Positions 3,416 to 63,898 of a stretch of DNA of 64,000 nucleotides are shown here, piece by piece (position 1 is the stretch's first letter; every line of letters begins with the position of its first letter). Below the pieces are notes generated by a model. That model worked only from the letters and a program-made list of their open reading frames with translations. It searched no databases and had not been told where the DNA came from. The position numbers were made by a program, and so were the translations under genes. The stretch covers positions 1,245,001-1,309,000 of the forward strand of contig NC_010718.1 in the NCBI RefSeq assembly GCF_000020005.1. Reading direction: 5' to 3'. The stretch comes from Natranaerobius thermophilus JW/NM-WN-LF (GTDB taxonomy: Bacteria > Bacillota > Natranaerobiia > Natranaerobiales > Natranaerobiaceae).

Positions 3416-4495
3416 GTGACAAAAAATTTTCACAAGACTGTTAATAACAAGACAGGTAAAAGAAAAAAAAGCTTAAAACAAAGTCTCTTAGTTTGTATTT
3501 CAGTTGTATTTGGAGTTTCTGTGATTATACAATTATTATTATCCATATTAGGAAGTATATTCATTGAAAAACCATATGTATGGTTTTTAGAACAAGAATT
3601 ACCCGGATTTTATGTTATGGAAATTCAAGATCCCCCTATTACTAGCTTAACTGATGCTTTAGACAAACTGTTACTTCATCCATTAGCTGTTGACAGTAAC
3701 TCACCAGAAACAATTTTAGGAACACAGTTTTCTCCAGTTAGGGATTATTCAAAGGAAATCCAAGCCATGGCTGAAGAACAGAAACCAGATCAGAAAAGCT
3801 CTAAAGAAGTAGTCTGGCAAGAAGAAACAGGCTTGGATTTGAGCGAGTTACCAGAGGAACCAATTGAAGATAGTCCACAAATAGTAGCGGAAGGTGAAAA
3901 TCTAGATGGCAAAGTAGGGATTTATCATTCCCACACTACCGAAAGTTTCGTACCAGATAGTGGTGAACCATTTACTGAAAATTTGGATAAAACAGTAGTA
4001 GAGCTAGGTCGGAAGTTGACTGAGGAACTAGCAGATTATAATATAGAAACTGTTCATACCGAGGAAGTCCATGATCTTCCAACTAGGAGAGATAGTTATT
4101 CGAGAAGTTTACCTACAATAGAAAATATGATGGAAGAAAACCCTGAAATTGATGTATTATTAGATATACATAGAGATGGAGTCCCTCGGAATATGACCAC
4201 TACAGAAATAGAAGGGGAACAAGTCGGGAAAATTTTAATACTGGTTGGTTCTGAAGGTAATCCTGATTGGCGGGAAAACTATCGTTTTGCCCTGCAGCTA
4301 CAAAAACAATTAGAAAAAATCCATCCTGACTTATCTCGGGGTATTAGGACAAGGAATTTTTCATATAATCAGGAAGTTCATTCCAGATCATTACTGATAG
4401 AAATTGGAGGTCATGAAAATAGTTTAGAAGAAGCAAAAAATACTATTCCATACCTAGCTGAAGCTCTGAAAAAGGCGGCATTTGCTGGTGATTGA
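3416..4495 (+). CDS. spoIIP: stage II sporulation protein P
   Basis: SpoIIP is the membrane-anchored peptidoglycan amidase/endopeptidase of the SpoIID-SpoIIM-SpoIIP engulfment complex. The 359-residue product has a basic N-terminus, one membrane segment at about 24-46, an acidic linker, and the amidase domain with IYHSHTTESF (about 169) and LLDIHRDG (about 248), holding the His/Glu metal ligands, then LLIEIGGHEN. The GTG start follows GAGGGGGAC. Its placement after gpr is typical of Firmicutes. Confidence 0.9.
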   Translation: MTKNFHKTVNNKTGKRKKSLKQSLLVCISVVFGVSVIIQLLLSILGSIFIEKPYVWFLEQELPGFYVMEIQDPPITSLTDALDKLLLHPLAVDSNSPETILGTQFSPVRDYSKEIQAMAEEQKPDQKSSKEVVWQEETGLDLSELPEEPIEDSPQIVAEGENLDGKVGIYHSHTTESFVPDSGEPFTENLDKTVVELGRKLTEELADYNIETVHTEEVHDLPTRRDSYSRSLPTIENMMEENPEIDVLLDIHRDGVPRNMTTTEIEGEQVGKILILVGSEGNPDWRENYRFALQLQKQLEKIHPDLSRGIRTRNFSYNQEVHSRSLLIEIGGHENSLEEAKNTIPYLAEALKKAAFAGD

Positions 4496-4555: not shown

Positions 4556-6355
4556 ATGACACAAGAACGAATTAGAAACTTTTCGATCATTGCACATATC
4601 GATCATGGTAAATCAACACTAGCTGATCGGTTGTTAGAATATACAAAAACCCTAACAGAACGAGAGATGCAGGAACAATTTCTTGACAATATGGATTTGG
4701 AAAGAGAACGAGGTATAACCATTAAACTGCAAGCGGTTACAATGAACTACCAGGCAAAGGATGGGAAAGAATATTATCTTAATGTAATTGACACTCCTGG
4801 TCATGTTGATTTCACCTATGAAGTTTCTCGCAGTTTAAAAGCATGTGAGGGTGTATTATTAGTTGTAGATGCTGCTCAGGGCATTGAAGCTCAAACCCTT
4901 GCGAATATTTATTTAGCTCTTGAACAAAACTTAGAAATTATACCAGTGATTAATAAGATTGATTTACCTAATGCTGATGTAGAAAAAGTTACTAGAGAAT
5001 TGGAAGAAATCGTAGGGATTGACGAAGATGAAGTTATTTTAGCTTCAGCTAAAGATGGTACAGGAATTGAGGACATTTTAGAAGCTATCGTGGAACGAAT
5101 TCCGGCTCCCGATGATAAAGAAGATGACCATTTAAAAGCCCTAATTTTTGATTCTTATTACGACACCTATCGGGGAGTGATCACTTATCTTAGAGTGTTT
5201 TCTGGTCAATTGGTTCCCGGAATGGAAATAAAGATGATGCAAACCGGAAAAAAATTCGAGGCCTCGGAAATTGGCATATTAAATCCGGGCCCTAAAAAAG
5301 TGGATGCCTTAAATGCTGGGGAAGTTGGATTTATGGCTGCCAATATAAAAGATGTAAAGGATAGCCGGGTCGGAGATACTATTACTTCATATAAGAAACC
5401 AGCTCCAGAGCCTTTAGCAGGCTATAAGCAAGTAAAACCAATGGTCTACTGTGGCTTGTTTCCTGCTGACGGAGAAGATTATGAAGATCTAAGGGATGCT
5501 TTGGATAAACTACAGTTAAATGACGCTTCATTAGTATATGAACAAGAAAATTCCGCTGCCTTAGGATTTGGTTTCAGATGTGGATTTTTAGGACTACTTC
5601 ATATGGAGATAATTCAAGAAAGGCTTGAAAGAGAATATGGGATTTCGCTAGTTACAACGGCTCCCAATGTTGTATATAGAGTAGAACTAGTCGAAGGAGA
5701 AGAAATAACAATTGAAAATCCCACGGATCTACCAGAGAGAAACGAAATTAACGCAATCTATGAACCAGTAGTAAGAGCTAATTTTATGGTGCCGCAGGAC
5801 TATATTGGCCCAGTCATGGAATTATGTGAAGAAAAAAGAGGGGAATATGAAACCTTGGAATACTTGGATTCATTGCGGGTACTGCTCAAGTACAAGCTTC
5901 CCTTAAGTGAAATTGTTTTTGATTTCTTTGATCTTCTTAAGAGTAAGACCAGGGGTTATGCTTCCTTTGATTACGAGATCATTGGTTACGAGGGAGCGGA
6001 TTTAGTTAAAGTGGATATCTTGGTGAACAAGGAACCTGTGGATGCATTATCCTTTATAGTTCATCAAGATAAAGCTTATTATAAAGGAAGACAGCTGGCA
6101 GGTAAACTAAGAGAAATGCTGCCAAGACAAATGTTCGATGTTCCAGTACAAGCAGCTATCGGTAATAAGGTAATTGCCAGGGAAACGGTGAAAGCAGTCA
6201 AAAAGAATGTCTTGGCAAAATGTTACGGTGGAGATATCACTCGTAAGAGAAAATTATTAGAAAAACAAAAAGAAGGGAAACAGAGAATGAAACAAGTCGG
6301 GAAGGTAGATATACCTCAAGAAGCCTTTATGGCGGTGTTGAGCATTGATAAATAA
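4556..6355 (+). CDS. lepA: elongation factor 4 (LepA)
   Basis: LepA is the ribosome-associated translational GTPase that back-translocates or remodels stalled ribosomes. The 599-residue protein has G1 [11 protein letters not shown]3 DTPGH and G4 NKIDLP, and the long LepA C-terminal domain ending with the basic region [17 protein letters not shown]. Full family length. SD AGGGGGACC precedes the ATG. The hemW reading frame begins inside its last codons, so the two are likely co-transcribed from the promoter at 4500. Confidence 0.97.
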
Positions 6356-7628: not shown

Positions 7629-8660
7629 ATGAGCCTTAATTGGCGTAAGCAAAAAATTTTAAAGACTATTATTTCAGATTATATTAAACGTGCAGAACCC
7701 GTCGGGTCTAGAACCCTGACAAAAAGATATGAATTTGATTTAAGTCCCGCTACTATCAGAAATGAAATGGCAGACTTAGAAGATATGGGCTTTTTGGAGC
7801 AACCGCATACTTCAGCCGGGCGTATTCCTACGGAAAGAGGATATCGTTTCTTTGTTGATGAGTTGATAACTCGCTGTTTATCAGTTCCACAGCAAGAGTT
7901 GCTCTTAAAAAAATTAACCAAATTCAAGGCTCTAGAAATAAATGAAATAGTGCAAGTAACAGCTCGGGCTCTGGCTGAAATGACAGATTATACTTCTTTA
8001 GTTTTAGGTCCGCAAACAAGTAAAAGTGCTTTTCAGGAAATTCAAGTTTTTCCTATTGATCAACAAAGGGTATTAATGGTTCTAACAACAGATACAGGAA
8101 TTATAGAAAGCAAACCGGTGCCAGTTTCTGGTAACTTATCAAAACAAGAGCTTAGTAACATAGTTCAACATCTAAACAAACGACTGAAAGGTTTAACTAT
8201 AGATGATATCACCCCTAGCCTATTAAAGGAGTTGCGGACAGATTTAATTAAAGAAGTGGATTTAGTGGAAAAAGCCATGCATATCTTGGCTGATTCCTTT
8301 AGACACAGTAGTGCCAACGTGGCTTTAGGCGGGACAAAGAATATTTTAAATCAGCCTGAATTTAATGATCTTAAAAAGGTGAAAGAGTTACTATCATTTT
8401 TTGAGAATGAAGAGGTCTTGGCTGAATTGCTTTCTGAATCGGAAGGCATTGTTGTGCGAATTGGGAAGGAAAACCCCAGGGATGAAGTGAAAGATTGCAG
8501 TCTAGTAACTGCTAGTTACGAATTAAATGGACGCCCCCTGGGTACTATAGGTGTTTTAGGTCCTACCAGGATGGATTACTCCAGGGTGATTGCCATAGTG
8601 GCTCAAATTGCCAATGAACTTACAATGGCATTGGATAAAAAGAAAATTACTGAGGAGTAG
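7629..8660 (+). CDS. hrcA: heat-inducible transcription repressor HrcA
   Basis: HrcA represses class I heat-shock genes by binding CIRCE and is kept folded by GroEL. The N-terminal winged helix includes GSRTLTKRYEFDLSPATIRN and MGFLEQPHTSAGRIP, followed by the dimerisation/insert domain. I use the ATG at 7629 (343 residues) with AGGGGTGA just upstream; an in-frame start at 7602 would overlap CIRCE and has no SD. First gene of hrcA-grpE-dnaK-dnaJ. Confidence 0.95.
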   Translation: MSLNWRKQKILKTIISDYIKRAEPVGSRTLTKRYEFDLSPATIRNEMADLEDMGFLEQPHTSAGRIPTERGYRFFVDELITRCLSVPQQELLLKKLTKFKALEINEIVQVTARALAEMTDYTSLVLGPQTSKSAFQEIQVFPIDQQRVLMVLTTDTGIIESKPVPVSGNLSKQELSNIVQHLNKRLKGLTIDDITPSLLKELRTDLIKEVDLVEKAMHILADSFRHSSANVALGGTKNILNQPEFNDLKKVKELLSFFENEEVLAELLSESEGIVVRIGKENPRDEVKDCSLVTASYELNGRPLGTIGVLGPTRMDYSRVIAIVAQIANELTMALDKKKITEE

Positions 8661-8663
8661 GTG

Positions 8664-9329
8664 ATGATTATGAAAAAAGAAAATAATCAAAATATCACAG
8701 AAGAACAAAAGCAATCGGCCAACCAAAAGAAAGAACAAAATCAAAAAGATACAGAAACAACAAACACACTGGAAAATCACAAAGAGGAAGTAGAAAGCCG
8801 AGAAGAATCAGGTGAAGCAGAAGACTTACAATACCAGGGACAAGGGGAGGAGAATTTGGAGAAAAAAATTGAGGATTTAGAAAACCAGAACGAGCGTTTA
8901 GAGGAGGAAAAACAGAGCTATCTCCAGCAATTGAAACGTTTACAAGCAGATTTTGATAATTATAAAAAGCGTACTGCAAAAGAATGGGAACGCACAAGCA
9001 CAGAAAAAGCAAAAGAATTGGCAGAGGATATATTACCAATTTTGGACAATTTTGAAAGGGCTCTTAACAACATTGACGACGAAAAAGTTGACCCCAATTT
9101 CTATGAAGGGGTTAATATGATTTATGATCAATTATATGAGGTACTAACCAAAAATGGGTTAGAGCGAATTGAAGCAGAAGGCCAAGAATTTGACCCTAAT
9201 TATCACGAAGCGGTTATGCAAGTTGACAGTGAGGAACATGAAAGCAATGTTGTCATTGAGGAGATTCAACCTGGCTTTCTATTTAAAGATCGCCTGCTGA
9301 GAGCAAGTGTAGTAAAAGTTTCCAGATAA
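8664..9329 (+). CDS. grpE: nucleotide exchange factor GrpE
   Basis: GrpE releases ADP from DnaK. The product has a long charged, low-complexity N-terminus (about 1-65), a coiled coil (about 66-110), the core motif ADFDNYKKRTAKE and the C-terminal beta domain including LYEVLTKNGLERI and RLLRASVVKVS. Possible starts are GTG 8661, ATG 8664 and ATG 8670; 8664 gives the best spacing from the GAGGAG that overlaps the hrcA stop. The acidic, Glu/Gln-rich N-terminus is longer than in many GrpEs. Confidence 0.93.
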   Translation: MIMKKENNQNITEEQKQSANQKKEQNQKDTETTNTLENHKEEVESREESGEAEDLQYQGQGEENLEKKIEDLENQNERLEEEKQSYLQQLKRLQADFDNYKKRTAKEWERTSTEKAKELAEDILPILDNFERALNNIDDEKVDPNFYEGVNMIYDQLYEVLTKNGLERIEAEGQEFDPNYHEAVMQVDSEEHESNVVIEEIQPGFLFKDRLLRASVVKVSR

Positions 9330-55635: not shown

Positions 55636-55711
55636 GGGCGGATAGCTCAGCTGGGAGAGCACCTGCCTTACAAGCAGGGGGTCACAGGTTCGAGCCCTGT
55701 TCCGCCCACCA
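55636..55711 (+). tRNA. tRNA-Val (TAC), copy 2, likely integration site
   Basis: Identical to the tRNA at 44879 including CCA. The integrase gene begins 120 bases downstream, so the 3' half is the probable attL core; the matching attR would be beyond 64000. Confidence 0.95.
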
Positions 55712-55780: not shown

Positions 55781-55833
55781 AAAAACCACTTTCTTTTAGT
55801 CCAAATAATGGACAAAAGGAGAGTGGTTTTTTT
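55781..55833 (+). terminator. 22-bp hairpin enclosing the integrase SD
   Basis: Arms 55781-55802 and 55810-55831 pair with one mismatch and two G-T pairs, loop AAATAAT, followed by TT. It looks like the tRNA-Val terminator, but its 3' arm contains AAAGGAG, the SD of the integrase. Confidence 0.8.
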
Positions 55834-56749
55834 GTTGTTGAAGTTTGCTATCCAAGATTTTATTGAGGACAGGGAGTTTAAGAACCTTACTCAAAAAACA
55901 ATTTCAGGTTACAGTGCTACACTAAAAGAGTTTCAAGAATTTATTTCAGAACAGGAAGTTGTTAATGCAAATGATGTAACTCAATCTCACATTAAATCTT
56001 ATCTACTTCACTGTAAAAAGAATAAAAACAATAATCCAACTTCTATTAATCACAAACTTCATAATCTCAAAATTTTCTTTAACTACCTACAAGACATTGA
56101 AGTAATAAGTGAAAAGCAAAATCCAGCTAAAAAAATTAACTATGTTAAAGAGGATATTAAAATTGAGGTTTTTAATGATTATCAGATAAAGCAGATGCTA
56201 GACTACTACAGAAGAATAAAGCGAAGGGAGAAAGGATTTTACGCTTATAGAAATTACACCATTATAGTTTTCCTTTTAGGTACTGGTAGTAGATTAGGTG
56301 AATTAATCAATTTGCGTTGGGATGATATTGATTTTATTAACAACACTATTGTCTTTTATGGCAAAAAGCGGGAATATTCATCAATTCCAATGACGGAAAA
56401 ATTAAAGAAAGAATTAATGGAATACAAAACTTATTGTGAACAGACTTTTGAAAGTTTATCTGAATATGTGTTTACTAATAGAAAAAATGAAAAGCTCACT
56501 GATAATGCAGTAAAATGTATTTTTAAAAGATTAAAGAAGGTCATGAATTTTAAAAATGTAAGAGTATCTTGCCATACCTTCAGACACACCTTTGCAGTAA
56601 ACATGATAAAAAACAACTGTGATATATTCACTCTTCAAAAGATGTTAAGACATAAAGATTTATCTATGTGTAGAAGGTATGTAAACTTTGGTACTGCTCT
56701 AAAGGAACAGAATGATAAGTTTAATCCGCTTAATGAAATTGATGTTTAG
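55832..56749 (+). CDS. tyrosine recombinase / integrase
   Basis: A 305-residue site-specific recombinase. The N-terminal SAM-like core-binding domain (about 5-90) precedes a catalytic domain with all six key positions: Arg in GTGSRLGELINLRW, Lys in FYGKKREYSS, HTFRHTF (His-x-x-Arg), His in LRHKDLSM and Tyr in CRRYVNF. The start is one of three TTGs at 55832-55840 after AAAGGAG; an ATG at 55808 lies in the hairpin loop with no SD. It probably inserted the element at tRNA-Val. Confidence 0.93.
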   Translation: MLLKFAIQDFIEDREFKNLTQKTISGYSATLKEFQEFISEQEVVNANDVTQSHIKSYLLHCKKNKNNNPTSINHKLHNLKIFFNYLQDIEVISEKQNPAKKINYVKEDIKIEVFNDYQIKQMLDYYRRIKRREKGFYAYRNYTIIVFLLGTGSRLGELINLRWDDIDFINNTIVFYGKKREYSSIPMTEKLKKELMEYKTYCEQTFESLSEYVFTNRKNEKLTDNAVKCIFKRLKKVMNFKNVRVSCHTFRHTFAVNMIKNNCDIFTLQKMLRHKDLSMCRRYVNFGTALKEQNDKFNPLNEIDV

Positions 56750-56804: not shown

Positions 56805-56822
56805 TAGAAGGAGGTATTGAAC

Positions 56823-58136
56823 TTGACTACTTTACAAGATTACATTGAAGAAAATTATAATGATAGAGAAACTTTCTTTAAAGAAGAAGTTAACAGAATG
56901 GATAATGTGAAAAGGGTTAATGAGATAATTGATATAAAGGAATTTCTTGAAGGTAAGAATCATTCAATATTGAACAGTCAAACAGAAGAATATAAAGGCA
57001 AAACTTATTATCCTGCTACTATAGTTTTGAATTATGCTAAAACAATCTGTAATTTTCAGACTAATTTTCTATTAAAGAATCCAGTTAGTTTAACTTGTAG
57101 TAATGAGGGCTTGTTGAATAGGGTGAAAGAGGTTTATGATATTGGGAATTATGACAGGATAGATTTTGATATACTTGACAAAGTTGTTAAATACGGAAAC
57201 GCTTATGAATACCCGTATATTTCAGAAGATGGATACATTTACAGTAAAATCATTCCCCCAGAAGATGGCTATCCTATCTTTTCAGAGTTTGGTAATGAAT
57301 ATATAGGATTTATTGAAAGTTATACAGTTGATAATGTAACATTCTGGGTTGTTTTTACAGAGGATAAAGTAGAAGAGTATAGCAACAAAGGTGGTAAGAT
57401 ACACAAAATAGGGGAGTATGAAAATGTTTCAGGATTGCCTTGTATCTACAAAAGTGATAATGAATTAGATGAAAACTTTGGCAGATCAGATGTGTTACGG
57501 TTTGGTGAAATCATTGAAGAAATGGAAAGATTGATTTCAAGGTCTTGCGATGGTTTATATAAATACATGGATGGGCTGCCTATTATGTCAGGTCAGCAAT
57601 TAGAGGGAGAAGAAGGGGTTAATCCTAAAATAGCAGGAGAAGGATTAAACCTTGAAGATGGAGCAGAATTTTACTTTGCCAATAATGAAATAAACGAGAG
57701 AGCATTTAAGGAAATTTATAATACACTTAAACAGGCGTTACTGGATATTTCCCAAACTCCTGCAGTTGCCTTTAACCAAACTGATATTTCTAACCTTTCA
57801 GAAGTTAGTATTAGAATGATGTACACATTAGCTAGTATGAAAGGTTCACTAAATGAAAAGTTTATGAGAGAAGGGTTTGAACAGAGGTTTGATAGGTTTA
57901 AGCGGTTGTTGGATTATAAAGGAGAGAATTATGAAGGGTGGGAGACATTAGACGCTGTGTTTCATCCTGCACTTCCAAGAAATGATAATGAAGTTATTGA
58001 TAACTTACAGAAGTTAGATGATATGGGAGCAATTAGTCTGGATACGTTGTTAGACAAGAATCCATACGTTAACGATAAAAACTTTGAAAAGAAAAGATTA
58101 GAAGAAAGCAATGATAATGGGAATAGTGAAGAATAG
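56823..58136 (+). CDS. phage portal protein, SPP1 gp6-like
   Basis: The portal is the dodecameric DNA gate at one capsid vertex. The 437-residue product has the family pattern: helical N-terminus, ATIVLNYAKTICNFQTNFLL, a central DYGNAYEY-like KYGNAYEYPYISEDG, and the clip/stem region with EIIEEMERLISR and LLDISQTPAVAFNQTDISNLS, the usual portal crown motif. TTG 56823 has AGAAGGAGG eight bases upstream; TTG 56817 is too close. No terminase gene precedes it. Confidence 0.88.
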   Translation: MTTLQDYIEENYNDRETFFKEEVNRMDNVKRVNEIIDIKEFLEGKNHSILNSQTEEYKGKTYYPATIVLNYAKTICNFQTNFLLKNPVSLTCSNEGLLNRVKEVYDIGNYDRIDFDILDKVVKYGNAYEYPYISEDGYIYSKIIPPEDGYPIFSEFGNEYIGFIESYTVDNVTFWVVFTEDKVEEYSNKGGKIHKIGEYENVSGLPCIYKSDNELDENFGRSDVLRFGEIIEEMERLISRSCDGLYKYMDGLPIMSGQQLEGEEGVNPKIAGEGLNLEDGAEFYFANNEINERAFKEIYNTLKQALLDISQTPAVAFNQTDISNLSEVSIRMMYTLASMKGSLNEKFMREGFEQRFDRFKRLLDYKGENYEGWETLDAVFHPALPRNDNEVIDNLQKLDDMGAISLDTLLDKNPYVNDKNFEKKRLEESNDNGNSEE

Positions 58137-58721: not shown

Positions 58722-58899
58722 AGAAAGGGACATCTTGTCACTTTCTAATTATTCATTTTGAACATTTAGAATTGGACATTGTGTCCATTTCTAAATCTTG
58801 AAATCCAAGTTTTCTTCAAGTAAGTTGTGTTTTACAACTTTCTAAATTTAATGGTGAAATTTTTTCACTATTTTAGAAACCGACATTTTGTCGGATTCT
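58722..58899 (+). repeat. series of five three-base-loop hairpins
   Basis: Hairpins at 58722-58746 (inner GACA-TCT-TGTC), 58764-58796 (TGGACA-TTG-TGTCCA), 58822-58840 (AAGTTGTG-TTT-TACAACTT), 58850-58872 (GGTGAAA-TTT-TTTCACT) and 58875-58899 (CCGACA-TTT-TGTCGG). Most have an outer stem, a one-base mismatch and an inner stem; copies of TTTCTAAAT or TTAGAAA separate them. Stem sequences differ while pairing is kept. Confidence 0.75.
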
Positions 58900-58928
58900 C
58901 AAACCTCCCACTAGAAAGGAGTTTTAGC

Positions 58929-59273
58929 ATGACTAACCTAGAACGCTTAAAAATGGAAATTAAAGATATAGAAGTCCACGAACAAGAACTTAAAGTCTAT
59001 TTAGAAGAAAATCAGCTTAAACCCGATGAAGAATACAAAACAGATTCCCCAATTAATAAACGCAGAATTTACCAAACAGCTTTATCAATCCTTGAATCCT
59101 TAGCAAACTCACCTACAACAATGAAAAGATACACTCACGAAGATATGACAGTCTCACAGTTTGCTGAAAACCTACAAAACAGAATTGACCAGCTAGAACG
59201 GACTATAAGACAGCTATCAGTTTCAGACAGTCACAACAAGAAGAGTAGTACCTTCATGTTGTTTAAGGAGTGA
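58929..59273 (+). CDS. small helical phage structural protein, connector-like
   Basis: A 114-residue, mostly helical protein (MTNLERLKMEIKDIEVHEQE; IYQTALSILESLANSPTTMK; LQNRIDQLERTIRQLS). Size, composition and position after a portal suggest a head-tail connector, but I do not recognise a specific family. ATG after AGAAAGGAG. It ends 5 bases before the next start, so the two genes are coupled. Confidence 0.65.
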   Translation: MTNLERLKMEIKDIEVHEQELKVYLEENQLKPDEEYKTDSPINKRRIYQTALSILESLANSPTTMKRYTHEDMTVSQFAENLQNRIDQLERTIRQLSVSDSHNKKSSTFMLFKE

Positions 59274-60108: not shown

Positions 60109-60468
60109 ATGAAAGAAAACAGAGAAAAGGAGCTGAAGGGCGAAATTGATAACCTAAAAGAAATAACACAAGCAATTCAAGAATGGAAAAGTGCAGATGA
60201 ACAAAAAACAGAAAATGTGATGGACACATTAACTAGTTTATCCAATGAAATGGCAGAATTAAGGAAAGATGTGAATGAAGTGAAAATTAATCTTCCTACA
60301 TACTATGTTACAAAAGAGCAACACTCACAAGATAAGCAAGAGTTAACTCAACAGATTAGACAAGTAGAGTATAACTATAAAAAGGATATGTGGAAGTTAG
60401 CAGGTTTGTTTTTAACTGGTGCAGGGATTATGTTTGCTTTAATTCAGCTTTTTGTTACTTCAATTTGA
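60109..60468 (+). CDS. coiled-coil protein with C-terminal membrane helix (XhlA-like)
   Basis: A 119-residue protein with a coiled coil (about 1-60, including TLTSLSNEMAELRKDVNEVK) and one C-terminal membrane segment (LAGLFLTGAGIMFALIQLFV). This layout resembles XhlA/holin-associated proteins of phage lysis modules, yet here it lies among head genes with no endolysin nearby. SD TTAGGAGG. A membrane-tethering role is another option. Confidence 0.6.
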   Translation: MKENREKELKGEIDNLKEITQAIQEWKSADEQKTENVMDTLTSLSNEMAELRKDVNEVKINLPTYYVTKEQHSQDKQELTQQIRQVEYNYKKDMWKLAGLFLTGAGIMFALIQLFVTSI

Positions 60469-60628
60469 AGTTTGGCAGGGGATGGATTTTTTCCATATTG
60501 TAAACAATGCAATAAATAGTTGTTGGAAAATCACTTCATTTTAATCCAAAAAATTTGTTATTATTAGTGAGGGATAATTTTCGTAAGAAATCACTTTATT
60601 TTACCCTAAAAATTTTGTTATTATTAGT

Positions 60629-60739
60629 GAAGCCAAGTGTAGTAAGTGTGGCGAGGTTAAGTTAGCAAAAGATAAATATTTTAGTAAAAATAAATCTAGT
60701 CCAGATGGTTTAAATACCATTTGCAAAAAATGTAGATAA
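60629..60739 (+). CDS. zinc-ribbon mini-ORF 1 (36 codons, no standard start)
   Basis: The frame reads EAKCSKCGEVKLAKDKYF, then SKNKSSPDGLNTICKKCR and a TAA. Two CxxC pairs 25 residues apart match the small zinc ribbon at the N-terminus of phage HNH proteins. The frame is open upstream into repeat copy 2 but has no ATG, GTG or TTG; a GTG at 60627 is one base out of frame. It may start at ATT, need a frameshift, or be a remnant. Confidence 0.45.
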   Translation, partial: EAKCSKCGEVKLAKDKYFSKNKSSPDGLNTICKKCR

Positions 60740-60789
60740 TTTTGTGCAAAATCACTTCATTTTAACCTAAAAAATTTGTTATTATTAGT

Positions 60790-60900
60790 GAAGCCAAGTG
60801 TAGTAAGTGTGGTGAAGTTAAGTTAGCTAAAGATAAATATTTTAGAAAAGATTCTAAAGGGAAATATGGATTAAAAGGAATTTGTAAAAAATGTGATTAA
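60790..60900 (+). CDS. zinc-ribbon mini-ORF 2 (36 codons, no standard start)
   Basis: The frame reads EAKCSKCGEVKLAKDKYF, then RKDSKGKYGLKGICKKCD and a TAA at the same position as in mini-ORF 1. In the shared first 18 codons the two copies differ at three bases, all synonymous, while the middle segment has diverged around a kept Gly-Leu and the final CxxC. It follows repeat copy 3 and has the same start problem. Confidence 0.45.
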   Translation, partial: EAKCSKCGEVKLAKDKYFRKDSKGKYGLKGICKKCD

Positions 60901-61193
60901 TATTCGACAAAATCACTTGTATTTAATCCAAAAAATTTGTTATTACTAGTGAGGGATAATTTTCGTGGAAATCACTTCATTTTAACCCAAAAAATTTGTT
61001 ATTATATATGAAGGGGAGAACAATTACGTCAAAATTACTTTATTTTAACTCTAAAATTTTGTTATTATATATGAAGCAAGGTGAGAAAAATCACTTCATT
61101 TTAACCCAAAAAATTTGTTATTATATATGAAGGAGTTTTTTATTCATACTTAAAACTTACTTTGGCTAATTCAACAGGTTGTTTTTTATCTTT

Positions 61194-61229
61194 AAAGAGA
61201 GCTACATTTCCGTAGCTCTCTTTTCTTTT
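61194..61229 (+). terminator. terminator after the repeat array
   Basis: A perfect 12-bp stem AAAGAGAGCTAC/GTAGCTCTCTTT with loop ATTTCC, then TCTTTT. It places the repeat array in the 3' part of the upstream transcript. Confidence 0.88.
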
Positions 61230-61262: not shown

Positions 61263-61667
61263 ATGAGTGATTATTTAAAAATAAAATTTGCTGAAACAGA
61301 TGAAGAAGTCTCCCAAGAGGGAGAATTTGATAATGCAATTATATTTAAGTTAAAAGCAGACGAAGAAGAAAAGGATTCTGAAAGATTGTATATTGAAGCT
61401 GATGAAGATTATCACTTGGAAGATGTTGTTATCAAGATTGAAGGAGATACAGCAGAAAAGTGGGCATTAGCACCTGATGATGATGGTGAAGAAGGTGAAT
61501 ATAAAGATTGGGGCGAGAGTTTAGATTTAGGAGATATTGATGCTGAAGATACAAAACACTTTTGGGTAAAGGCAAAAGCGGAAGAAAATGAAGATTTGGG
61601 GCAATATGATGATGTTCTTATTACTGTTGAAGGTCTTGCAGAAGAAACAGGCGGGGATTTGTGGTAG
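61263..61667 (+). CDS. highly acidic phage-element protein, unknown
   Basis: A 134-residue protein with about 46 Asp/Glu and 12 Lys/Arg. Alternating hydrophobic segments (DVVIKIEG, KHFWVKAKA, DVLITVEGL) suggest a beta sandwich. It could be a capsid decoration or adaptor protein; the strong charge also allows a DNA-mimic role. SD TAGGAGTGATAAC. Ends Gly-Gly-Asp-Leu-Trp. I do not recognise a family. Confidence 0.65.
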   Translation: MSDYLKIKFAETDEEVSQEGEFDNAIIFKLKADEEEKDSERLYIEADEDYHLEDVVIKIEGDTAEKWALAPDDDGEEGEYKDWGESLDLGDIDAEDTKHFWVKAKAEENEDLGQYDDVLITVEGLAEETGGDLW

Positions 61668-62540: not shown

Positions 62541-62996
62541 ATGAAATTTGAATGGACAGATGATTTAAAACAACAGTTTGATGAAGAACAGCAAAAAACA
62601 GTTGAAAAATTGGTACAATCTCACGAAGATAAAATTAGAACAGAATACAGTCAAAAATTAAATGATATGGAGAGTAAAATACAGGAACTAGAACAATACA
62701 AGCCAGAAGAAAAATCAGAAGAACAGAAAAAGATTGAAGAAAAGGAAAATGAGTTATGGCAGAAACAGGTTGATTTAACACTTAAAGAAAATGGCTTAGA
62801 TGGTTTTGAGGGTTTAATAACTGCTAAAGATGAAGAAGATTTGAATAACAAGGTAGAACAGTTAAATAACGTCTTAAAGAAAAAGAAGGTTAATAATAGT
62901 TATGTTCCTAGAGAACATGGTTCAACAGATAAGTACTCACAAGCTAAACAAGAAGGTAATCCAAAAGAGATGATAAAATCTTTAATCAACAAATAA
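62541..62996 (+). CDS. phage capsid scaffolding protein (DUF4355-like)
   Basis: A 151-residue, highly charged coiled-coil protein (residues about 10-75 Glu/Gln/Lys-rich, then LTLKENGLDGFEGLI) directly before the major capsid gene. Size, composition and position match DUF4355-type scaffolds, which guide capsid assembly. SD AAAAGGAGG. Confidence 0.8.
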   Translation: MKFEWTDDLKQQFDEEQQKTVEKLVQSHEDKIRTEYSQKLNDMESKIQELEQYKPEEKSEEQKKIEEKENELWQKQVDLTLKENGLDGFEGLITAKDEEDLNNKVEQLNNVLKKKKVNNSYVPREHGSTDKYSQAKQEGNPKEMIKSLINK

Positions 62997-63028
62997 AGCA
63001 TACTATATAATTACAGGAGTGATTGAAT

Positions 63029-63898
63029 ATGTTTACACATAATAACTTTTTACAATATGAAAGTATTGATATGAGTGGAGTTTTAGAAGTTACTAACGTA
63101 CCACAAACTCCTATTACATCTTTGTTGATGGTAAGGCAGGTTCAAGCACAAGCTCCACAGGTACATTGGGTAGAAGTTGAGATAGATGAATCTTCGGCTG
63201 TTACTCAAGGAGAAGGTGATGATGCTCCAGAACATAAAACTGATAACAGAGAACTTAAAGAAAACTACCTTGAGATTTTTGGAGCAACAGCAAAGGTCTC
63301 AAATACTGCACAGTATTCAACTAGTGAAACTGTGAATGACTTACTAGCACATGAAGTAGAGTTGAAAACTCAATCCATTCGTAACAGAATGGAAAACAAG
63401 TTTATTAATGGTAATAAAAACTTTGCTGATGGTGTTTATGAAACTGATGGTATTCTTAACTTGATTAATTCTGAAAACCAAAAAACAGAAGATGAATTTA
63501 ATGAAAATGTTTTCTTAGATACTTTACAAAAGCTATACGATGCGAATGTACACGATAATATGATTGTTTTCCTTAGACCAGAAGAGAAGATTAAGATTAA
63601 CCAAGAGTTTAATAACGTAGTTAAATATACTGATACTTTAGATCGAGTAGCAGGATTCGATGCAGAGCAATACATATCTCCTTTTGGTATTGTAAGATTT
63701 GCACTTGCACCAAAGTTACCTGCTAATACAATGTTTGTAATTAATCCTGCTTATCTTGAAATGCCAACACTAATTCCATTCACAGCTAGACCACAGAATC
63801 CTAGTGGTTCTAAACAGGAAGTATACCTAGAAACACAAGCAGGAGTTAAGCTATTAAACAGTTATGCTGGTTCTACTTTAGAAATTTCTACTGCATAG
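63029..63898 (+). CDS. phage major capsid protein (HK97-type, DUF5309/SU10-like)
   Basis: The 289-residue protein has LEVTNVPQTPITSLL, HWVEVEIDESSAVTQGEGDD and FGATAKVSNTAQYS near the N-terminus, a central helix-rich section and a C-terminal FTARPQNPSGSKQEVYLETQAGV, the pattern I associate with SU10-like capsid proteins of the HK97 fold. AGGAGTGATTGAAT precedes the ATG. Scaffold plus MCP strongly support a particle-forming element. Followed by a terminator. Confidence 0.8.
   Translation: MFTHNNFLQYESIDMSGVLEVTNVPQTPITSLLMVRQVQAQAPQVHWVEVEIDESSAVTQGEGDDAPEHKTDNRELKENYLEIFGATAKVSNTAQYSTSETVNDLLAHEVELKTQSIRNRMENKFINGNKNFADGVYETDGILNLINSENQKTEDEFNENVFLDTLQKLYDANVHDNMIVFLRPEEKIKINQEFNNVVKYTDTLDRVAGFDAEQYISPFGIVRFALAPKLPANTMFVINPAYLEMPTLIPFTARPQNPSGSKQEVYLETQAGVKLLNSYAGSTLEISTA

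Follow-up and report, generated by a model that had tools for sequence, protein, structure and literature searches.

A tandem repeat array upstream of the capsid genes of a satellite-like element in Natranaerobius thermophilus, a candidate for a captured late-operon site of a helper phage

The 14.8-kb element and its repeats

The window, that is the whole stretch of DNA analysed, comprises 64,000 nucleotides of contig NC_010718.1 (positions 1,245,001 to 1,309,000) of Natranaerobius thermophilus JW/NM-WN-LF. The repeat array described here sits in a 14.8-kb element located between two complete tRNA-Val copies, at 55636-55711 and at ~70419-70494 in window numbering, the second of which falls beyond the window end. 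The features are the following.

55636-55711, forward strand: tRNA-Val(TAC), attL; Rfam tRNA match, exact repeats of 40+ nt with the second copy
55808-56749, forward strand: tyrosine integrase (phrog_1, E 7.6e-51)
56817-58136, forward strand: portal protein, SPP1 type (PF05133, E 5e-59; phrog_64)
58827-59273, forward strand: ORF of the head-gene region; similar protein after the portal gene in L073, L104 and L078, no phrog match
60109-60468, forward strand: small ORF with coiled coil and membrane segment, directly upstream of the array; weak matches only
60528-60571, forward strand: repeat 1, empty unit, ...TTATTATTAGTGA followed by GGGATAATTTTCG
60588-60631, forward strand: repeat 2
60617-60739, forward strand: zinc-ribbon frame 1, start-less, VIISEAKCSKCGEVKLAKDKYFSKNKSSPDGLNTICKKCR and stop; corresponds to a phage gene 3' end of phrog_5767 type
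60749-60792, forward strand: repeat 3
60778-60900, forward strand: zinc-ribbon frame 2, start-less, VIISEAKCSKCGEVKLAKDKYFRKDSKGKYGLKGICKKCD and stop; closest DNA match the 3' end of an L021 gene (78.6% over 70 nt)
60910-60953, forward strand: repeat 4, empty unit
60969-61012, forward strand: repeat 5, TTATTATATATGA followed by AGGGGAG
61032-61075, forward strand: repeat 6
61088-61131, forward strand: repeat 7
61194-61223, forward strand: terminator-like hairpin of 12 pairs, between the array and the capsid operon
61263-61667, forward strand: capsid operon ORF 1, possibly an accessory structural protein (phrog_23562, E 5e-6, unknown function)
62541-62996, forward strand: scaffolding protein (phrog_233, E 4e-4), which precedes the coat gene in relatives
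63023-63898, forward strand: major capsid protein, SU10_MCP family (PF17236, E 1.7e-59; phrog_1328)

The element also encodes a large terminase, an AEP primase (PF22548, E 4e-10) and proteins with replication-initiation matches. A scan of the ORFs of 90 aa or longer gave no convincing match to tail or lysis genes, the only candidate being a weak phrog_238 match (E 0.005) in the ORF at 59270. The gene and sequence features expected of a cfPICI-type element are present: an integrase with att duplication, terminase, portal, scaffold and capsid genes, and a primase, with no recognised tail genes. By its gene content the element resembles a capsid-encoding, tailless satellite.

Seven copies of a repeat of ~44 bp, arranged head-to-tail on one strand, occupy positions 60528-61131. 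The copies start (ATCACTT or ATTACTT) at 60530, 60590, 60751, 60912, 60971, 61034 and 61090, with start-to-start distances of 60, 161, 161, 59, 63 and 56 nt. The seven 44-bp repeats and the two distance classes (about 60 nt, and 161 nt twice) recorded in the first-pass annotation were thus confirmed, as was its observation that the short spacer of the empty units matches the tail of the full unit (GATAATTTT). The dyad symmetry that it ascribed to the repeats proved weak, the folding of single repeats being no better than that of shuffles (z -0.8 to +1.3). An Rfam search of the array returned nothing above chance, and a sigma-70 scan found no standard promoter within the repeats.

The array is the sole site of the repeat in the 3.19-Mb genome: a 32-nt IUPAC pattern gave 7 matches (0-2 mismatches), all inside the array, and the reversed control pattern gave 0. 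This genome-wide search, which had been proposed as a check, speaks against a dispersed MITE, and a MITE was rejected on the basis of the single locus and the weak dyad. A CRISPR array was rejected because spacings vary from 56 to 161 nt and the inserts are homologous rather than unique spacers. We agree with the earlier view that neither CRISPR, nor attC sites, nor coding repeats fit.

Zinc-ribbon frames in the 161-nt units

Each of the two 161-nt units carries a zinc-ribbon frame of the form ...KCSKCGEVKLAKDKYF..GL..ICKKC(R/D) ended by a stop. No in-frame ATG, GTG or TTG lies upstream of the ribbon in either window frame, and a start codon is also absent from the ribbons of most relatives. 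In the well-conserved first half and in the cysteines, all differences between the two copies are synonymous (GGC/GGT, GAG/GAA, GCA/GCT, TGC/TGT), and the loop between the conserved parts is divergent; therefore, the window ribbon frame derives from genuine coding DNA. Both frames match the C-terminus of phrog_5767 (profile positions 356-390 of 393; E 2e-9 and 2e-11), a family also matched by the ribbon of a relative in genome G038 (E 2e-13). At the DNA level, the window ribbon matches the 3' ends of phage genes in L021 (1e-9), in a Staphylococcus SPbeta-like phage (7e-7) and in Geobacillus virus E3 (2e-6). The name 'sigma factor' given to phrog_5767 is a PHROG label, to which a Pfam search and a PDB profile search gave no support. 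The order in the window is ribbon, stop and repeat, the same as in E3 and phi127. Since phages present this same order of gene end and site, and since the ribbon DNA matches those very gene ends, the start-less frames are, judging from these comparisons, the ends of phage phrog_5767 genes carried along with the site and not small genes.

Hence, of the zinc-ribbon mini-ORFs claimed in the first-pass annotation, the two frames are present, but they have no start codon and correspond to phage gene 3' ends. The proposal that a segment of about 104 bases had been inserted or removed holds in part. The 'empty' units of relatives retain 3' remnants of the ribbon, for example VCKTCR and a stop in L169 and TGTAGATAATATTG in L148, so that an empty unit looks like a full unit minus an internal segment; mobility of that segment is unnecessary, as tandem duplication and internal deletion explain both unit sizes without mobile 104-bp segments. 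Likewise, the small-gene cassette array that had been suggested is a modular array within a phage-like element, but its segments are not genes.

Other candidate explanations were rejected. An integron cassette array implies complete small ORFs, and the frames are start-less. Programmed frameshifting from the ATG or GTG of box 2 (defined below) would require a shift that varies among copies, and one copy has no ATG. Recoding of TGA as tryptophan explains why starts seem to be missing from some rumen phage contigs only, and does not apply to the window. Switching of a zinc-ribbon cassette into an intact gene finds no partner, as the genome holds no other such ribbon gene. In the rumen phage contigs L018-L024, the phrog_5767-like genes are read through only if TGA encodes tryptophan. 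A start-less ribbon of the same type is also found in Macrococcus carouselicus (L105, 7425-7550), in another prophage region with no obvious array, near an antirepressor-like remnant.

Related arrays and the single site of large phages

A search with the coat protein recovered at least about 69 relatives among viral contigs, mostly of 11-19 kb. Coat identity across diverged family members is 25-61%, and the architecture and place of the array are alike. In 31 of the 49 relatives with enough sequence upstream of the coat gene, a long non-coding gap in that position contains repeated 14-mers in excess of all 100 shuffles. The same kind of array occurs in the related element of genome G038 (L002/L004/L073), and in Lysinibacillus sphaericus 2362 (L104) a start-less ribbon upstream of the scaffold and coat genes is enclosed by two identical 45-nt repeats. 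The units of L148, L169 and L162 (60-70 nt) have two boxes in common with the window units: box 1, which is A-rich, and box 2, which reads roughly TTAT.(A/T)(A/G)TGA(A/G)GG. When a box-2 matrix built from known units was applied to 45 further loci outside the training set, 59 occurrences were on the capsid-ward strand versus 8 on the other (10.6 per strand in shuffled sequences). Many family members have no recognisable box-2 array.

Arrays of other composition were also seen. L166 contains, in that gap ahead of the capsid genes (1034-1320), a second kind of repeat, six copies of the 22-nt iteron-like TATTTATCAGAATGGATACACA, which possibly form a replication origin. L094 (reverse strand, 8080-9130), L095 (7700-9100) and L078 (340-1400) hold arrays with another zinc-knuckle fragment (KYCxxCxK..), whose repeats are of type TTTAGAAAACCCTTATATATCAACG plus ATAATGGTCTATGAAGG; these likely reflect a different type of helper. 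In G038, one and the same IstB-type insertion sequence interrupts or borders the arrays of both L074 (9500-12600) and L073 (5585-8400).

A matching site is found once in large phages. It is single in the E3 genome (141 kb), where gp4 belongs to the phrog_5767 family (E 6e-121), ends in a zinc ribbon and has its stop codon within a stretch that is almost the same as the L148 unit; it is likewise single in the 159-kb Bacillus-type phage contig L193. All L148 units match the E3 site, the best with 82.6% over 69 nt (E 3e-13). By BLAST, the arrays of L148, L127, L137, L139, L147 and L125 match the E3 genome only at 5600-5698, and at E<1e-4 the sole match elsewhere in its 141 kb falls in a coding region and comes from a single stretch further downstream in L144. 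The arrays of L162, L169, L171, L192, L194 and L158 match the late site of L193, and those of L171 and L194 also match the site of Bacillus phage FADO. In all, twelve arrays are specifically matched by the late-operon site that E3 or L193 has in one copy. For the 44-bp unit of the window, BLAST found no counterpart among known phage sites, the ribbon DNA being the only part of the window array that matched, and no helper phage with the exact unit was found; anatomy and box 2 are what the unit has in common with the phage site. A DNA search of the phage collection with the L169 and L104 arrays gave no match at the thresholds used.

The surroundings of the phage site are informative. In L193 and FADO the next genes after it are a small-terminase-like gene with a zinc ribbon, TerL and portal, and in E3 it precedes HU ... 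TerL and portal, more than 6 kb from TerL. Mammaliicoccus phi127 and a Staphylococcus SPbeta-like phage present the phrog_5767 gene end, a box-2-like motif and the HU gene. As in the window, most of the phages examined have a hairpin 3' of their single site. In L208 (FADO, 3880-3950), L207 (3910-3980) and L193 (2600-2640) this hairpin has a CTCCC loop; the loop might base-pair to the GAGGGG that immediately follows box 2, which suggests a structured leader RNA.

Interpretation and comparison with known systems

With moderate confidence, we propose that the array represents the captured and multiplied late-operon start site of a large helper phage of the SPbeta/E3 type together with the adjoining gene end, the site being most likely a late promoter. 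At the family level, capture and multiplication of a phage site is well supported by the sequence comparisons; that each repeat copy is a late promoter is what we infer from position and orientation. The satellite would have captured the late-operon site of its helper with the 3' end of the adjacent upstream phrog_5767 gene, the site would then have been multiplied into a tandem array, and internal deletion of the dispensable gene-end segment would have given the empty units. The late promoter within each copy would consist of an AT-rich -10-like box followed by TGAGGGG. On helper infection, the late transcription apparatus of the helper would fire the array, so that the satellite capsid operon is expressed in step with the helper late genes, the several satellite copies competing with the single one of the helper. 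As a terminator-like hairpin lies between the array and the capsid genes, transcription would have to pass it by antitermination or with a terminator-insensitive polymerase. In SPbeta a single start close to yonO, the polymerase gene, serves all late genes as one operon (PMC5467207), and the E3-type site has a comparable location. In SPBc2 (L209, 59140-60850, reverse strand), the yonN-yonK interval contains TTTATGA[AG]GG motifs (TTCATTTATGAAGG and GTCATTTATGAGGG); the YonO late start has been mapped to this interval, at position 2225998 of B. subtilis 168 (PMC5467207).

The main alternative would be that the site is the packaging start (pac/cos) of the phage, multiplied by the satellite for packaging by, or titration of, the helper terminase. 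One copy per phage genome and, in L193 and FADO, a position immediately ahead of the small-terminase-like gene are consistent with it, and the SPbeta pac, mapped roughly near yonR-yonP, is not far from the equivalent region (PMC8270828). However, the E3 site is more than 6 kb away from TerL, and in the satellites it is the capsid operon that the array accompanies, with the copies uniformly oriented towards the capsid genes and the element's own terminase kilobases away. We consider the packaging reading unlikely. A late promoter is favoured over it because the site is single in phages and heads the late operon, its distance to the terminase varies and the arrays are oriented capsid-ward. A decoy or operator array, titrating the helper regulator of the late site and inhibiting the helper with no direct promoter role, would profit from seven or more copies versus one in the phage, and the L193 site has a palindrome, AGTGCTTTGTAAAGCACT, beside a -10-like box; for such a decoy, neither the constant place ahead of the capsid genes nor the constant orientation would be needed, and we regard it as quite improbable.

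Real mini-genes with unusual starts or frameshifting, for which the repeats would be regulatory sequences, are very unlikely. Conservation of the ribbon at the protein level and the SD-ATG-led zinc-knuckle frame of L078 (1062-1229) point in that direction, but no near-cognate start is common to the copies, the Macrococcus copy begins directly after a stop (TAA TTA GAA GCG TTA AAA TGT), the needed frame shift varies between copies, the segment has been lost from most units, and capture of a gene end accounts for the absent starts. As for an ordinary degenerate repeat or MITE in a decaying prophage, the AT-richness and the degeneration of several copies would agree with it; the uniqueness of the sequence in the genome, the like architecture and place in elements as diverged as 25-61% coat identity, and the specific matches of the relatives to phage sites make it hardly credible.

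To our knowledge, satellites recognised in genome sequences can seldom be assigned a helper. Should the array be a copy of a late site, sequence comparison alone would pair a satellite with its helper; six of the elements would belong with a phage of the E3 type and another six with one of the L193/FADO type. Such copying would also constitute a new form of regulation theft, in which the single switch of the victim is multiplied rather than a regulator encoded, and such arrays might let parasites switch on their shell genes when the bigger phage attacks. Literature searches returned nothing relevant on arrays of helper late promoters in satellites, nor a description of the late promoters of SPbeta-like and E3-type phages, to which the arrays would point. 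As a tentative generalization, tailless capsid satellites may repeatedly capture the unique late site of the helper with its gene end by recombination and amplify it to outcompete the helper, the arrays keeping a record of the helper.

The late promoter used by SPbeta YonO, whose sequence was stated as undetermined, is alike in being the single start of a long late operon near a phage transcription gene and HU/yonK (PMC5467207), although YonO stands where E3-type phages have the phrog_5767 gene; a search of the SPbeta region with the arrays gave no BLAST match. The phrog_5767 proteins of E3 and SPbeta-like phages belong to the same C-terminal ribbon family, whereas the array has only the start-less 3' end of the gene. 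Integron/attC arrays also consist of modular repeats with and without short frames, but the present array has neither start codons nor an integron integrase and its repeats are explained by phage sites. cfPICIs are integrated elements of ~14-17 kb with integrase, replication genes, terminase, portal and capsid, and no tail genes. The element is alike in size and gene set, and differs by its SU10-type coat, its SPP1-type portal and the tandem array of a presumed helper late-operon site. In P4/P2 and SaPI/LtrC, the late genes of the satellite are under the late control of the helper, via activator-dependent promoters or regulatory proteins. The same control of late genes by the helper is proposed here, with the difference that the element would achieve it with tandem copies of the helper's own site and a flanking piece of gene.
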